Part shown: in pieces, positions 47,095 to 54,390 of the stretch
How the letters are laid out: each line of letters starts with the position of its first letter
How positions within the stretch are numbered: the stretch's first letter is position 1
NCBI GenBank assembly: GCA_029552945.1
Contig: JAKPDD010000017.1
Location: 1-64,000 of the forward strand
Reading direction: 5' to 3'
Source of the DNA: Spirochaetota bacterium
Lineage (GTDB): Bacteria > Spirochaetota > GWB1-36-13 > JAKPDD01
DNA: 64,000 nt
Translations under genes and position numbers: made by a program
Notes under the pieces: generated by a model
The model's input: the letters and a program-made list of their open reading frames with translations, nothing else
Told to the model about the DNA's origin: nothing
Database searches by the model: none

Positions 47095-47118
47095 AGTAGG
47101 GTTTCTGCCCTACTTTTT
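47095..47118 (+). terminator. Rho-independent terminator
   Basis: AGTAGGG-TTTCTG-CCCTACTTTTT. Confidence 0.8.
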
Positions 47119-47119
47119 A

Positions 47120-47200
47120 TCAATCTTCTGTCCTATATTTTAGTATAAGATATACTATTACTGCTAAAAGAACAGCTATGTGTAGTATAAAAATAAACAT
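47120..47200 (-). CDS. Putative 26-aa single-TM microprotein (not in supplied ORF track)
   Basis: MFIFILHIAVLLAVIVYLILKYRTED*; AGAGG about 6 nt upstream of ATG. Confidence 0.4.
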   Translation of the reverse strand: MFIFILHIAVLLAVIVYLILKYRTED

Positions 47201-47243
47201 CAAAAACCTCTATTTTATAAAAGTTTTTTCCGAAAATATCTAT

Positions 47244-48410
47244 ATGAAAAATATAATTATAAAATTCTTTTTTTTCAAGATATTTTTTATAATTGTTTAT
47301 ACTAATATATTTGCCAATGGGTTAAACGTTAGTATGATATCATCATATTTTGATGAAAAAGAGTTTGTTGTAAAATTATCATGGGAACCAATAAATGAAC
47401 CAAAAGCTGTTTATAAAATATATAGGATTCTAAAACCGATTGATAACAAAGCTATTTATATACCTGATAAGAAAGAGCTTATAACTGTTGTTGATTACAA
47501 TAAAAATTATTTTATTGATGAACCGCCTGAAAAGGGTGATTATTATTATTTTATTACTGTTTCAATAGACAATGATGAAAATTTTAAAGTTATTTATGAC
47601 CAAAATTATACATCAAATCCAGTAACTTTTTATCCTAAACCCCCATCAGTCAAAAATATAAGGTGTAAATTTGTTCCTCAAGGATCAAAAGTTTTTATAA
47701 CATGGATGTTAGAAGATGCATCTAAAGAAAAAATAAAGGAATTGCGAGTTTATAGATCAAATTATCCAATTGACAGGAATAGTATTTTATTATTAGAACC
47801 TGTTATTATAGATAAAAATCAGGATTTTTATATAGATACTCCTAGGACAGGACAGTATTACTATGCTGTAACGAGTGTTTCCTTAGATAATCTTGAGTCT
47901 TTATTTTTTTTACCCGGTCAAAATTATATTGATAAACCTGTACTTGTTATAAATTATCAGGGTTTATTACCAGAGTTTTTTATAAATCTTCCTTTTAATG
48001 AGAAGTTTAATTATAGTATTAATTATAATCTATTTGATCTACCTGATTATATAGATATGATTGATATAGATATTATAAAATATTATGTTGAACCTAAGAA
48101 GGAGGATGATAAAACTATAAAGGAAAAGTTAAAAATTATTAACCTTCAACTTGAAGTGCTTGCTTTAAAAAAAAAGTGGGAAGATTTTATTAAAAAAATT
48201 GATGAAGTTCTTTCTGATACAACCTGGGATAATAATATAAAAAACAGATTTTTGATGTACAAGGCTTATGCACTTATAAATCTTAAAAAAGAAGATGAAG
48301 CATTTTTAATAATCAGTATTTTAAAATCCGATAATGAATTTGTTAAATTGAATTATAAAAAAATAGAGCAACTTATTAAAAAAATAGAGGATAGAAAGAA
48401 AAATAAATAA
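47244..48410 (+). CDS. Exported protein with two FN3-like segments and helical C-terminus
   Basis: Signal-like MKNIIIKFFFFKIFFIIVYTNIFA at 47244; tandem KLSWEP.../ITWMLED... beta segments. Confidence 0.6.
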   Translation: MKNIIIKFFFFKIFFIIVYTNIFANGLNVSMISSYFDEKEFVVKLSWEPINEPKAVYKIYRILKPIDNKAIYIPDKKELITVVDYNKNYFIDEPPEKGDYYYFITVSIDNDENFKVIYDQNYTSNPVTFYPKPPSVKNIRCKFVPQGSKVFITWMLEDASKEKIKELRVYRSNYPIDRNSILLLEPVIIDKNQDFYIDTPRTGQYYYAVTSVSLDNLESLFFLPGQNYIDKPVLVINYQGLLPEFFINLPFNEKFNYSINYNLFDLPDYIDMIDIDIIKYYVEPKKEDDKTIKEKLKIINLQLEVLALKKKWEDFIKKIDEVLSDTTWDNNIKNRFLMYKAYALINLKKEDEAFLIISILKSDNEFVKLNYKKIEQLIKKIEDRKKNK

Positions 48411-48429
48411 TCTATTTTAAGGATTTTAT

Positions 48430-49839
48430 ATGCAAAAAAAGTTTCCCTTCTGGCTTATACCATTTACTCTTTTCCTTTTTATTGCAGTTTTGTTTTTAAT
48501 TTTATATTTTAACAATAAGTTATGGTTTTTTGATAAATATTTTAAAACTACAGTTAAAGACAAAAATTACAATGACTATACACCGGAGAGAAAAGATATT
48601 GTATCAGATGATTTTTTAGTAGCTTCTATAAAAAAAGAGGAAGATAAGCTTAAAATTTCACAAGACAATAAACTGGTTGATTTAAGAAAAGATATTAGTG
48701 ATAAAAATTTAACAGATGAAATTGAGAATAAGTTTAGAAAAGGGATTGATTTTTTTAAATCTGGACAATATAAATATTCAGTTGAAGTTCTGGAAGAATA
48801 TTTAAGACTTACTAAGAACGATAAAAATAGGTTAAAGTCTTATTTTTATATTGCTTATGCTAAGATGTTTGATGGTATTAAGAATAATAACAATGACCTT
48901 ATAGAAGAATCTCGTAATTTTTTTATAAAAGTATATAAAAGTATAAATAAGGAAAGTGATATTTTCTCTAAAACAATAATAGGCCTAGCTCGTACTTCAA
49001 GGTTATTAAAAAATTATCCAGAAAAAATAGATGATTTATTAAAAGAGGCAATATTAATTGAAAAAGATGATAGAGTAAAAAAAGTGGTTTTTTATGAAAT
49101 TTCGTTATATTATTTATATAATAATGATTTTAAAAAGTTTGTTATGTATATAGAAAGGTCAGGGAACTCAATAAAAGAGATGGATATAATAAATACTATA
49201 TTAGAACAACCTTTAAGCTCTATAAGTATAGTAAGTTTGATTGAAAAAAATATTTTAAATTTTAATTATTTCCCATATTTAAAATATAGGATGCAGGAAA
49301 AAATGTTCAATGACGCAAAAACGTTTTATTACAATAATCAGAAAGAAGAGTCTTTATACATATTAAAAAAAATAATTACTCTTTTCCCATATGAACCTAT
49401 TGTTGAGGATGCAAACTATTTTATAGCTACTATTTATCATAAAGAGATGGAGTTTGATAAAGCAATATATTATTATGATCAGGTTTTATCAAATCAGTAT
49501 CCTGATTATGATCCTGCTGCACTTTTCAGAAAGGGTATTATATATTACAGACAGGGTAACTATAAAATGTCAAAGGAATGTTTCTTATCTATAACAACTG
49601 ATTTTGTTAGTTCAAATTATTATAGACCTGCTAAAGACTGGCTAAAGGAAATAGAAAAAGTAATATCTTATAAAAAAGATATTGAGAATCTAAGTAATAA
49701 AAATGACAACACTATAAAAAAAGATGATTCGTTAAAAAATGAAAATAAAAATTTAGATGAAAATAAAATTTTAAAACCCAAAGAAGATGATGGGGATATT
49801 AATATTTTTGATGATGAAGATAATATTTTTACAAAATAA
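48430..49839 (+). CDS. Membrane-anchored TPR protein
   Basis: N-terminal TM FWLIPFTLFLFIAVLFLILYF; TPR helices (EKAIYYYDQVLSNQYPDYDPAALFRKGIIYYRQGNYKMSKECF). Confidence 0.75.
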   Translation: MQKKFPFWLIPFTLFLFIAVLFLILYFNNKLWFFDKYFKTTVKDKNYNDYTPERKDIVSDDFLVASIKKEEDKLKISQDNKLVDLRKDISDKNLTDEIENKFRKGIDFFKSGQYKYSVEVLEEYLRLTKNDKNRLKSYFYIAYAKMFDGIKNNNNDLIEESRNFFIKVYKSINKESDIFSKTIIGLARTSRLLKNYPEKIDDLLKEAILIEKDDRVKKVVFYEISLYYLYNNDFKKFVMYIERSGNSIKEMDIINTILEQPLSSISIVSLIEKNILNFNYFPYLKYRMQEKMFNDAKTFYYNNQKEESLYILKKIITLFPYEPIVEDANYFIATIYHKEMEFDKAIYYYDQVLSNQYPDYDPAALFRKGIIYYRQGNYKMSKECFLSITTDFVSSNYYRPAKDWLKEIEKVISYKKDIENLSNKNDNTIKKDDSLKNENKNLDENKILKPKEDDGDINIFDDEDNIFTK

Positions 49840-49850
49840 AAGGATTGATA

Positions 49851-50768
49851 ATGCAGGATTTTTTAAAAATTATTATGTCTAATATAATATCTAAAATTAA
49901 CATTAACTCTGACATAGAAAATAATTTAGAGTATATAATAAATAATAAAATATATGATATACATAAAATAGTTCAGAGTAAGGGTTATAAAATTGATCCT
50001 GTTAGTTTAAAGGATAATATACTTAGTGTAACCAATCAATTATTTATTGAATATTTATTGTCTTCTGTAAATAAGTTTGTTGATAAAATACTTGAATCAA
50101 ATATATGGGCTGTTCTAGGCGTAGGTCCTATTGTAAAAAGTTCATACATTGAATACTTTAATCTTTTTTATAAAGAGATGCTACTTAATAAAGAATTCAG
50201 ACTCCTATTTTATGATGTTTATTCAGTTATTAATTCTGATATAATTGATAGATACACTAAAAATCTTTACCATAGGAAAGGTTATGGCCATCTTTACATG
50301 TTTGCAAAGCCTATAAGTAATCCTCAATTATTAACAGATCTTCTTAAGTTATCTTCTCTTATATACCCTGTTGTTTTAACCCCGTTTAGAATAGATAATA
50401 AGGTTTATATTATTGATGAATATCTTGTAAGAAAAGACCTTATTGATGAGTTTTTATCTATTCTTGTAAAATATATTAATAGTAGATTGGGTAAAATACC
50501 AAATGAAGTTGTTGAGATAGCATTACATGCATCTATTAATAAAAGAAAACTTATATTTGATATTGGACTTAATGTTAGAGCTGATCTTTTAAGAGCTCTT
50601 ATCACAGTTGCTAAGTTTAAATCAAAACAGGTTGATATAAATAATAAAATGGCTGATACACCTGAAAAAAGTTTAATTACAATTTTTAAACAACAAGTAG
50701 ATTTTCTTGGGCTTGAAAAAAACTTGATATATGAACTTGAAATGGTTACAAGAGAAAATAGGTGGTAG
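49851..50768 (+). CDS. Hypothetical helical protein
   Basis: About 305 aa; no family recognised; ATG at 49851. Confidence 0.65.
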   Translation: MQDFLKIIMSNIISKININSDIENNLEYIINNKIYDIHKIVQSKGYKIDPVSLKDNILSVTNQLFIEYLLSSVNKFVDKILESNIWAVLGVGPIVKSSYIEYFNLFYKEMLLNKEFRLLFYDVYSVINSDIIDRYTKNLYHRKGYGHLYMFAKPISNPQLLTDLLKLSSLIYPVVLTPFRIDNKVYIIDEYLVRKDLIDEFLSILVKYINSRLGKIPNEVVEIALHASINKRKLIFDIGLNVRADLLRALITVAKFKSKQVDINNKMADTPEKSLITIFKQQVDFLGLEKNLIYELEMVTRENRW

Positions 50769-50771
50769 AAT

Positions 50772-51881
50772 ATGAGAAATATTTTTGAAACATTTATAAA
50801 CATATTTATAATTCTGGTAGTAATAAGTACTGTATTGGAAGAAATTTTTTCTCTTAATGTATCTTCTTACAAAGATTTTTTTATCTATATAAACTTTGTT
50901 TTTGACTTTGTATTTACTCTTGAGTTTATAATAAGAAGTGTAATATCAAAAAATAAAAATGGTTTTAGGTATTATTTAACAACAGGTCTTGGATGGATAG
51001 ATTTTGTAAGTTCTATTCCACTCCTAGTATTAAACTCAGGTCCATCTTTATATTCTTATCTTACAAATGATTTTACATCAACTGCTGCATCTTTTATAAG
51101 TTTTGTTAGTGTAATGAAAATAGCAAAGATAATAAGAGTTACAAGAATATTCAGACTGTTAAGATTTTTAAAACTTCTTAAAAACTTGAATTTTCTTGAT
51201 TCAAAAATAGCTCAAAGACATTTAAATTATATTGTATCACTTATAATCTCTATGATAATACTATCGGTACTTGTAATGAACATACTTCAATTTAATATAA
51301 ATAGTTTTATAGAAGATGATATGAAAAATAATTACAAAGATGTTTTAAACTCTGCTTTGATTATTTCTATTAAAACAGGTGTTGATTTTTCTAGTGTTCT
51401 TAAAGATATACTGGTTAAAGATTATAGAATAATTGAAGCTTATTACAGGGAAACTAAAATTTTATCTAAAGATTTTAATATTAATTTTAGTTTTTTAAGT
51501 TATATAGATAAATTCAATTTTAATAATGTTACTATATATTATATTGATTATAATCTTATAAAAAGTGAAGCTATTTTTTCTATTATTATTATAATCATTA
51601 TAATTGTTTTGTCAATTTCAATAATATTCATTTATTCCAGAAAGTTTGCACTTGAGATTTCAGATCCAATTATACTTGTGTCCAAAGGATTTAATGAGTC
51701 AAACTTTTTTATAAGAATTAGGGATGACTACAGACATGATGATGAGATTAAAGAACTTATAAAAGGTTATAATGATATATGGCTTAATACAAAATTAAAA
51801 TATTTTCATGAGATATATGAGGAAAAAATTAATTTAGATATAAGTGAAATAAATATAGATGATATTACTAAAGGATTATAA
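50772..51881 (+). CDS. Voltage-sensor-domain protein without pore filter, with extracytoplasmic insert and HAMP-like segment
   Basis: S2 FVFTLEFIIRSVI, S3 GWIDFVSSIPLLVL, S4 KIAKIIRVTRIFRLLRFLKLLK, TM IIIIIIIIVLSISIIFIY, HAMP-like DPIILVSKGF...DDEIKELIKGYNDIW. Confidence 0.8.
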   Translation: MRNIFETFINIFIILVVISTVLEEIFSLNVSSYKDFFIYINFVFDFVFTLEFIIRSVISKNKNGFRYYLTTGLGWIDFVSSIPLLVLNSGPSLYSYLTNDFTSTAASFISFVSVMKIAKIIRVTRIFRLLRFLKLLKNLNFLDSKIAQRHLNYIVSLIISMIILSVLVMNILQFNINSFIEDDMKNNYKDVLNSALIISIKTGVDFSSVLKDILVKDYRIIEAYYRETKILSKDFNINFSFLSYIDKFNFNNVTIYYIDYNLIKSEAIFSIIIIIIIIVLSISIIFIYSRKFALEISDPIILVSKGFNESNFFIRIRDDYRHDDEIKELIKGYNDIWLNTKLKYFHEIYEEKINLDISEINIDDITKGL

Positions 51882-52328
51882 ATGAGGCCAATACCAATTT
51901 ATAACAGACAAAAATCTACAAGAACATGGTTTAAAGATTCTAATATAATTGTAGAAAGTTTTTTGGAAGACCCTGTCCATTTTATAAGACTTAAAGTAAT
52001 TATTAATTTTGAAACGAGAGTTATAAAAGATATAGAAACTGAGTTTATAAGATCACCTTATGAAGATATATGCCCTCTTACAGGTAATGAGTATAAAAAG
52101 ATAATAGGTCTTAAAATTGAGGAGGGTTTTAACAAAAAAGTATCTGAAATTATTAAGCTGGATAAAGGTTGTACTCACTTAACAACTTTGCTAAGAGAGG
52201 CAGCAGATAGTTTTATTCAGAGTATATTTTACAAAACTGCTGATACAAAAGAGGGTAAGGAGAGGAGAGATTTATTGAAAACAATGTTAAAAGATACTTG
52301 CCTTGCTTACTCAAAAGATTATGTTTAA
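51882..52328 (+). CDS. DUF2889-like protein
   Basis: MRPIPIYNRQKSTRTW...CPLTGNEYKKIIGLKIEEGFNKKV...LKDTCLAYS. Confidence 0.7.
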   Translation: MRPIPIYNRQKSTRTWFKDSNIIVESFLEDPVHFIRLKVIINFETRVIKDIETEFIRSPYEDICPLTGNEYKKIIGLKIEEGFNKKVSEIIKLDKGCTHLTTLLREAADSFIQSIFYKTADTKEGKERRDLLKTMLKDTCLAYSKDYV

Positions 52329-52349
52329 AAAATCTTAGAGGATAAGAAT

Positions 52350-53249
52350 ATGTCAAAAGTTATAAAGTCTGATTACATTAAGGATATTAATAGGCCGGTA
52401 ATAATAGAACCCCCTGTTTTTGAAACTAAGGAGGAGGGGATTGAAGAGGAGAGAAGAGAGGAGATAAAAGGACCTTCTGAAGAGGAATTACAAAAAATAA
52501 TAGAGGAGAAAAAGAGAGAAGCTGAAGAAGAAGCTGAAAAAATAATAAAAAAAGCTAATGAAGATGCTCAGAAAATAAGAGATGAAGCTGAAAATTATGC
52601 GTTTAATAAAGTTAAAAAGATTAATGAAGAGTTTGATTCAAAGATGAAAGAAGCTGAGTTTAAAGCAAAGGTTGTAATTGATGATGCTAACCAAAAAGCT
52701 AAATTGATAATAGAGGATGCTCAAAAAGAGGCTGAAAAAATAAAAAAAGAGTCTTATTCTCAGGGTTTTGAAATCGGAAGAGAAGAAGGATATAAGTCTG
52801 GTCAAGAGGAAGTTAATAGACTTATAGGAGTTCTCCATAAGGTTGTTGGAGAACTTATAAAGAAAAGAGAGAGTATTGTAGAGGAAACTGAAAATCAACT
52901 TGTTGACCTTGTATTACTTATAGCTAAAAAAGTTGTTAAGGTTATTACTGAGTCTCAAAAAAGAGTTATATATGATAATGTTATTGCTGCTATAAATAAA
53001 CTAAGGATAAGATCTGAAATTACAATAAGAGTTAATCCAGAAGATGTATATACAGTTACAAAATATAAGAAAGACTTTATGGAAGCTGTTGAGGGTATAG
53101 AAAACATAAGAATACTTGAGGATCCTAATGTTGACAAAGGTGGATGCATAGTTACAAGTGAGTTTGGTTCAGTTGATGCAAGGATTTCAACTCAATTAGC
53201 TGAAATTGAAGAACAAATAAAAAAACTATCACCAATAAAGAATGAATAA
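52350..53249 (+). CDS. fliH: Flagellar assembly protein FliH
   Basis: Long charged coiled coil then LIAKKVVKVITESQKRVIYDNVIAAINKL...ILEDPNVDKGGCIVTSEFGSVDARISTQLAEIEEQI. Confidence 0.88.
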   Translation: MSKVIKSDYIKDINRPVIIEPPVFETKEEGIEEERREEIKGPSEEELQKIIEEKKREAEEEAEKIIKKANEDAQKIRDEAENYAFNKVKKINEEFDSKMKEAEFKAKVVIDDANQKAKLIIEDAQKEAEKIKKESYSQGFEIGREEGYKSGQEEVNRLIGVLHKVVGELIKKRESIVEETENQLVDLVLLIAKKVVKVITESQKRVIYDNVIAAINKLRIRSEITIRVNPEDVYTVTKYKKDFMEAVEGIENIRILEDPNVDKGGCIVTSEFGSVDARISTQLAEIEEQIKKLSPIKNE

Positions 53250-54390
53250 ACTAGTATTTTATTTTTATTTATTTTTTATTTTTAACATTACTTATTTACA
53301 TGCAAGAGAGGAATATCTTATTCCATTTTTTATAGACTGTGTTGGTAGTGGTTTTACAGGTGTATCTAAAAATACTAATTCAAGAAACTTGTTTTTTAAT
53401 CCAGCTTTTATAAACAAATCAGAGGGTTTTTCTATAATTGATCTTTCTTTTGCTTATAGTAAAATTATAAATGAGATATATTCTGATCCTGATTCACTTA
53501 AACAAAAAATAATGGATGCTTTGGGTGGAAAAGAGTCTTATGGATATATTAATCTAAGTGGTCCTATATTTATTAATTTCAGAATAGAAAATATACAGTT
53601 TTCTGTATTTCATTATTTTATTGACACTTTTAGAGTCTATTATAGCGATAACCCATCTCCTGATGTTTATGCTGATGTAAGATTTAATGATAATATTGGT
53701 GTTGGTGGTGGAGTATCTTTCCCTGTTCCAGTTTATATTTTTGGGAGCAAGTGGGAAGAAGCATATATTGGTGCATCACTCTTTGTTTTTCAGAGAGTAA
53801 AGGCTGTGAATAAACAACTTGGTTTTTCTGAAATTTCTGGTATGGATAACCCATTATCATTTTTAAATGATAAACTTAATCCTGGAAGAGCTTTATCGTT
53901 TACTTTTCATACAGGGTTTTTTTATTCTTATGAAAATCTAACATTTGGTGTATCAATTTATAATCTTCTATCTTTTCCAATGGTATATTATCCAACACAG
54001 ATTCCTTTAATGTATAAGTCAAATTCTTCAACAGAGATTACATCGTATTTTGATCATATGCCTCTTGACTTTGCTTTTGGAATAACCTATTCAACTAAAA
54101 GAATAGGGGCAATTTCTCTTTATTTTGCTAAAGATTTTAAGTTTTCTATAGAATTTTTTGAAATAACAGACACAGAAAATTATCCTAATTTTTTTGACAA
54201 AATAAGGATAGGCATTGAAACAACTCTTGCAAATATTATAAAGTTAAGGATGGGATTATTTCACAGAAATATGACTTTTGGAATAGGTTATGATATATGG
54301 ATCTTTAAAATAAATGCTGCTTACTGGAGTGAAAAGGTAGGTAATAATAAAGCGAATAATCTTGGTTTTTCACTAAGTATAGACCTTTAA
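53242..54390 (+). CDS. Outer-membrane beta-barrel-like protein
   Basis: Signal peptide, alternating beta-strand pattern, terminal NLGFSLSIDL. Confidence 0.7.
   Translation: MNKLVFYFYLFFIFNITYLHAREEYLIPFFIDCVGSGFTGVSKNTNSRNLFFNPAFINKSEGFSIIDLSFAYSKIINEIYSDPDSLKQKIMDALGGKESYGYINLSGPIFINFRIENIQFSVFHYFIDTFRVYYSDNPSPDVYADVRFNDNIGVGGGVSFPVPVYIFGSKWEEAYIGASLFVFQRVKAVNKQLGFSEISGMDNPLSFLNDKLNPGRALSFTFHTGFFYSYENLTFGVSIYNLLSFPMVYYPTQIPLMYKSNSSTEITSYFDHMPLDFAFGITYSTKRIGAISLYFAKDFKFSIEFFEITDTENYPNFFDKIRIGIETTLANIIKLRMGLFHRNMTFGIGYDIWIFKINAAYWSEKVGNNKANNLGFSLSIDL

Follow-up and report, generated by a model that had tools for sequence, protein, structure and literature searches.

A pore-less voltage-sensor protein joined to a receptor-like module, and its partner gene, in the spirochaete phylum

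According to a 2023 review, no prokaryotic voltage sensor is known that lacks a pore (PMC10377628), and the voltage-sensor proteins covered by another review are channels, sNHE, a protozoan cyclase equipped with a K+ channel pore, Ci-VSP and Hv1 (PMC10651576). In the open-licence literature, we found no paper joining a voltage-sensing domain with a HAMP domain. The Ion_trans channels Kv1.2 and AtTPC1 share with the gene described here, which we term c0, the sequence and fold of S1–S4, including the F-x-x-E motif of S2, the aspartate of S3 and the charge ladder of S4; however, the last two helices of c0 do not enclose a pore helix or a selectivity filter. Hv1/VSOP and sNHE resemble c0 in that their voltage sensors are found outside classical channels, but these are proteins of eukaryotes; Hv1 lacks transmembrane helices beyond its sensor, and sNHE is a transporter.

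The gene c0 was found in the window, that is, the whole stretch of 64,000 nucleotides that was analyzed, as an open reading frame of 369 amino acids on the forward strand (positions 50772–51881, ATG start), and it has relatives well beyond its source genome. The encoded protein consists of an S1–S4 voltage sensor, a fifth transmembrane helix (TM5), an extracytoplasmic domain of approximately 87 amino acids, a sixth transmembrane helix (TM6), a divergent HAMP-like segment and a short tail, in this order. These features and those lying upstream of c0 are as follows (positions in the window, strand, description and basis).

47095..47114, +, terminator-like hairpin upstream of the plus-strand gene run 47178–54390 that holds c1 and c0 (pattern scan only)
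49845..50768, +, c1, partner gene, 305–307 aa, all-helical (start at ATG 49851 or TTG 49845)
50772..51881, +, c0, putative pore-less voltage-sensor receptor, 369 aa (homologues; AlphaFold, pLDDT 85)
50775..50858, +, S1 helix, aa 2–29, with terminal acidic residues E23/E24 (AlphaFold helix, family alignment)
50871..50954, +, S2 helix, aa 34–61, with D45, F48 and E51 (AlphaFold, conservation)
50991..51065, +, S3 helix, aa 74–98, with D77 (AlphaFold, conservation)
51117..51182, +, S4 charge array, K/R at 116/119/122/125/128/131/134/137 (sequence, conservation, lowest entropy)
51204..51377, +, TM5 and its extracytoplasmic extension, one unbroken helix, aa 145–202 (AlphaFold)
51288..51548, +, variable extracytoplasmic domain, aa 173–259, a helix and two beta-hairpins in place of the pore loop (AlphaFold, entropy)
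51549..51632, +, TM6, aa 260–287 (AlphaFold)
51633..51806, +, divergent HAMP-like segment, aa 288–345, with G306, E325, N334, L338 and K341 (hhalign, conservation, AlphaFold)
51852..51878, +, C-terminal tail peptide NIDDITKGL, putative partner-docking peptide (tail comparison)

Relatives of c0 were detected in 21 out of 60 genomes by a single-sequence search, and a profile of the c0 family matched 96 out of 393 Spirochaetota genomes (about a quarter, E <= 1e-10), a count that takes in some weaker matches to a sister family. When the contigs of named genomes were scanned with the single sequence, no match was obtained, whereas a scan with the family alignment found the loci; the best 80 of the 155 loci all belonged to spirochaetes, including Leptospiraceae, except for one record named only as 'bacterium'. 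The c0 family is conserved across the spirochaete phylum, as sampled in these Spirochaetota genomes, and is not an oddity of one genome.

Voltage sensor and absence of a pore

We obtained an AlphaFold model of c0 using a 40-sequence family alignment as input (mean pLDDT, 85). In this model, helices corresponding to S1 (residues 2–29), S2 (34–61), S3 (74–98) and S4 (118–138) were followed by a long helix (145–202), a short helix, two beta-hairpins (220–232 and 245–258), a second long helix that recrosses the membrane (260–308), a loop and a final helix (324–357). The predicted layout is that of a TM-sensor-TM-HAMP receptor, and not S5-P-S6. Pfam gave a match to Ion_trans (PF00520; residues 3–265, E = 5.8e-14) and nothing else of note, while the sole result from NCBIfam was a weak one below the cut-off (E = 0.0039), in which residues 263–336 aligned with the end of a sensor family of histidine kinases. 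A Foldseek comparison of the whole model with the PDB yielded nothing below E = 0.001 (best E-value, 0.056); the most probable matches were a WalK histidine kinase (probability 0.93) and the AtTPC1 channel (0.80, 136 columns), which split as expected into the receptor half and the voltage-sensor half of c0.

The original prediction had described an S1–S4 layout with eight charges in S4, and both parts of this description proved correct. F48-x-x-E51 and D45 in S2, together with D77 in S3, match the charge-transfer center of Kv channels. Among PDB sequences, the best match to c0 was Kv1.2 (residues 31–165, E = 0.0019). In S4, K or R occupies eight consecutive third positions from 116 to 137; 20,000 shuffled versions of the protein gave at most 6. 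The residues of the sensor were also widely conserved: of 122 homologues, 120 have F48, 116 have E51, 117 have D45 and 118 have D77. Each of the first seven charged positions of S4 was K or R in 111–119 of them, and the eighth position (137) was variable. Thus, c0 contains the features of a voltage-sensing domain, namely the phenylalanine and glutamate of S2 and the aspartate of S3 that belong to the charge-transfer center, and at least four S4 charges at every third residue. In the 122 members, S4 had the lowest mean column entropy (1.36 bits), followed by S3; the value for the HAMP-like segment was 1.93 bits, and the extracytoplasmic domain, with 3.14 bits, had the highest. This pattern indicates that the constraint is strongest on the sensor and the relay. 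Judging from this pattern of residues, S1–S4 of c0 probably responds to voltage in vivo.

No pore helix was found between TM5 and TM6 in the AlphaFold model of c0; the place of the pore loop is taken by the long helix leading from TM5 to the periplasm, the two beta-hairpins and the helix leading from TM6 to the HAMP-like segment. In the 122 members, a search for a Kv/Nav filter motif between the same two helices gave five scattered weak regex matches, none of which was conserved. The model and the motif scan therefore agree that c0 does not have the pore helix and filter between S5 and S6 of a voltage-gated ion channel, in accordance with the earlier claims that the pore loop and a TVGYGD-like filter were missing and that an insert of approximately 100 amino acids stood in their place, which corresponds to the extracytoplasmic domain. 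One member (L083) has lost everything inserted between TM5 and TM6 and retains the sensor and the HAMP-like part. As a control within the genome of c0, a true Ion_trans channel carries TIGYGD. This voltage-gated-type channel (L272, contig C20 of genome G000) has a cyclic-nucleotide-binding-like C-terminus and is the sole other Ion_trans protein in that genome. Two pore-less types of voltage-sensor protein did not fit c0 either: Hv1 is a stand-alone S1–S4, whereas c0 has two more transmembrane helices and a HAMP-like segment, and neither Pfam nor NCBIfam gave a phosphatase match of the kind that a voltage-sensing phosphatase, with its PTEN-like domain after S4, should show. We infer that c0 carries no ions.

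HAMP-like segment, C-terminal tail and partner gene

For the segment after TM6, which the original prediction had called HAMP-like, the outcome depended on the method. The Pfam HAMP model (PF00672) matched none of 23 c0-family members at E <= 10, and the segment is accordingly no HAMP domain by the curated family model. In contrast, when a family profile of residues 284–346 was compared with the HAMPs of the same genome using hhalign, a probability of 68% was obtained, or 87% with the transmembrane helix included, compared with 0.1–3% for control comparisons with other segments of the same protein. The profiles were aligned in the correct register, such that the DE of helix 2 coincided and so did the conserved N, and the model shows the two-helix layout after a transmembrane helix (helices 260–308 and 324–357). 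By profile similarity, the C-terminal segment of c0 is a real but divergent HAMP-like segment. Overall, the sequence, the AlphaFold model and the hhalign comparison support the claim of a pore-less voltage sensor joined to a receptor-like TM-sensor-TM-HAMP module.

This reading of the segment was further supported by a natural fusion (L105:4588–6276, minus strand), the one such case in our survey, in which the same chassis, that is, a voltage sensor, TM-ectodomain-TM and a HAMP-like segment, leads into an HD-GYP domain (HD_5, 6.8e-25; Ion_trans, 1.4e-17), with a HAMP score of only E = 0.069, under the cut-off. It is possible that L105 is a voltage-controlled c-di-GMP phosphodiesterase.

The gene c1 stops 3 nt before c0 in the window and was located directly upstream of c0 in 33 out of 41 loci, where it was the sole widespread neighbor. 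In the phylum-wide lists, c1 was directly upstream of c0 on the same strand in 71 out of 94 c0 places, often overlapping it by a few bases, and in the genomes that were on both the c0 and the c1 lists the two genes were adjacent in all but one. No match to c1 was found among Pfam, NCBIfam and PDB profiles. The AlphaFold model of c1 (pLDDT 90) is all-helical and was read as that of a cytoplasmic protein, for which Foldseek found no significant match. A relationship to HD-GYP or HDOD was considered and rejected, since hhalign gave values below 1% against both and the Foldseek hints were weak (best HD-GYP match, probability 0.35, TM 0.30–0.38). Given the conserved pairing, c1 is likely to be the effector of c0.

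Most c1-linked members of the c0 family end in an acidic amphipathic peptide of the 'LDDL' type (SMDDLM, SLDDFL or KMDDIK), of which NIDDIT at the end of c0 in the window is a variant, and one member (L079) has a long acidic tail carrying several such units. Members without c1 mostly lack the peptide, namely the B subfamily (L017–L019, L073, L074, L228 and L229), four others (L095, L021, L101 and L180) and the truncated L102, L103 and L024, while L078 has the tail and its c1 is located elsewhere in the genome. In Brachyspira-like loci (L085, L086 and L100), the tail is absent and c1 is missing the first ~72 profile positions. There are exceptions, as L222–L225 have the tail and no c1 match in the genome, and the tails of Borrelia-like members are divergent. 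This co-occurrence, read by eye from related sequences, hints that the tail may dock on c1.

Other genes were also observed near c0. In L080 and similar Spirochaetales loci (clusters c3, c4, c6 and c8), the pair lies within a conserved block of genes with DUF503, ComFB, HD and PilZ domains, and this block spans several genera. In front of the tail-less B subfamily lies a protein with a caspase fold (Peptidase_C14), which is lipoprotein-like in both L073 (5847–6704, plus strand, 2.5e-19) and L228 (3330–4190, minus strand, 1.1e-21); the same caspase-fold sequence, partly masked, is present in L074 (6871–7398, plus strand).

Family variants and alternative readings

The sensor charges are not retained in all members. 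In the Borrelia-like loci L084, L098 and L099, which we take to be Borrelia, the S2 glutamate is lost and S4 is shortened, and in the Brachyspira-like loci, presumably Brachyspira murdochii, S4 contains no charges at all; the c1-c0 pair is present in both groups, the members of which have long branches and an unsure placement in the tree. The Borrelia-like copies are found on 0.9 Mb chromosomes beside a cluster of CheY, CheX, CheW-CheR and CheA. We believe this pair to be BB0674/BB0675, and a literature search for these two Borrelia genes found no paper. The retention of c1 next to a degraded or chargeless sensor indicates that voltage sensing is not required for the pair in these genomes and that the role of the pair can outlive it.

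Pore-less architectures were also seen in other proteins. Four open frames of 420–496 aa (L249, L252, L255 and L265) encode a voltage sensor followed by a transmembrane helix, an ectodomain and another transmembrane helix, with no filter motif and with a probable coiled coil at the end instead of the c0 tail. A further pore-less voltage-sensor protein with TM-ectodomain-TM (L243, 322 aa) is distant from the c0 family.

The Borrelia-like and Brachyspira-like members, which keep TM5-TM6-HAMP and c1 and lose the S2/S4 charges, are in line with the possibility that c0 is an ordinary receptor of a periplasmic cue, in which S1–S4 serves mainly as a channel-derived anchor or dimerization unit and voltage only tunes the response or is not sensed, as is the presence of an extracytoplasmic domain in nearly all members. 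Elsewhere in the family, however, the gating charges and the charge-transfer center are the best conserved features, and conservation is lowest in the extracytoplasmic domain, which is deleted in L083. We regard this possibility as unlikely, although it is the least improbable of the alternatives.

Conduction is possible for voltage sensors that are isolated or lack a pore, as in Hv1 and in omega currents (PMC10651576), and acidic residues are located at the end of S1 in c0. The voltage sensor itself might act as a gated leak for protons, as in Hv1, or for cations, which would make c0 a channel that lacks a classical pore. This is improbable, because the conserved HAMP-like segment, the tail and the partner gene point to signaling, a fusion to HD-GYP exists, and the S4 tryptophan that is conserved in Hv1 (PMC10377628) is missing from S4 of c0 in the window.

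The original prediction had also linked c0 to motility on account of fliH, two genes downstream in the window, and a regulator of motility or flagellar export would agree with the Borrelia-like copy lying beside the CheY-CheX-CheW-CheA cluster, on the other strand. When the neighborhoods of 147 loci were searched, however, FliH and DUF2889 were present in the window only and absent from the other 146. No flagellar gene recurs as a neighbor of c0, and the conserved neighbor is the upstream c1, which the original prediction had not mentioned; the proposed link was dropped as an adjacency limited to the window, and such a role is very improbable. The FliH gene (window 52350–53249) is located between the DUF2889 gene and a PorV-like gene, outside any flagellar export operon. 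Finally, that c0 is a silent regulatory subunit of a true channel in the same cell, comparable with the silent Kv subunits that occur in animals, is scarcely credible even though its genome has the pore-bearing Ion_trans channel with TIGYGD, since TM5-TM6 with an 87-aa ectodomain and HAMP is unlike a channel subunit and the gene pairing that is conserved is with c1 and not with a channel.

Proposed mechanism and comparison with known systems

We consider it probable that c0 is a non-conducting membrane-potential receptor that signals, most likely, to c1. In such a receptor, a change in membrane potential would move the charged S4, and this motion could act on TM5/TM6, and hence on the HAMP-like helices, through the link of approximately six residues between S4 and TM5. 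The extracytoplasmic domain may supply a second input, and the output would most likely pass via the acidic C-terminal peptide and HAMP to the cytoplasmic c1. The protein is expected to function as a dimer.

If this is true, some bacteria read the membrane potential as a signal, beyond its use as an energy source or for ion gating, and spirochaetes may read their own membrane voltage in this manner. The family also provides a natural series for the gain and loss of voltage sensing, with chargeless, ectodomain-less and HD-GYP-fused members. Reports from the 1980s are said to have found that spirochaete chemotaxis depends on the membrane potential. We tentatively suggest, with somewhat less confidence than in the receptor itself, that c0 represents a class of pore-less voltage receptors that would be the first in prokaryotes. 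Such a system would be ancient in spirochaetes; in it the potential, perhaps in combination with a periplasmic cue, would act through HAMP on a cytoplasmic effector of a new type, and it could underlie this dependence of chemotaxis.

Ci-VSP and other voltage-sensing phosphatases resemble c0 in having a complete voltage sensor with a non-channel cytoplasmic output and no pore. However, they are eukaryotic and their S4 leads straight into a PTEN-like enzyme, whereas S4 of c0 leads into TM5-ectodomain-TM6-HAMP and a separate partner protein is present. WalK-type kinases and chemoreceptors, like c0, contain a transmembrane helix leading into a small extracytoplasmic domain, a second transmembrane helix and a HAMP-like relay, but c0 differs from them in the voltage sensor placed in front and in having no kinase or MCP output domain in the same chain. 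Each half of c0 is thus known, and there seems to be no earlier description of the receptor that combines them, of its conservation across the phylum or of its partner. Among the known systems, voltage-sensing phosphatases are the closest to c0 in principle, and WalK-type receptors are the closest to its second half.
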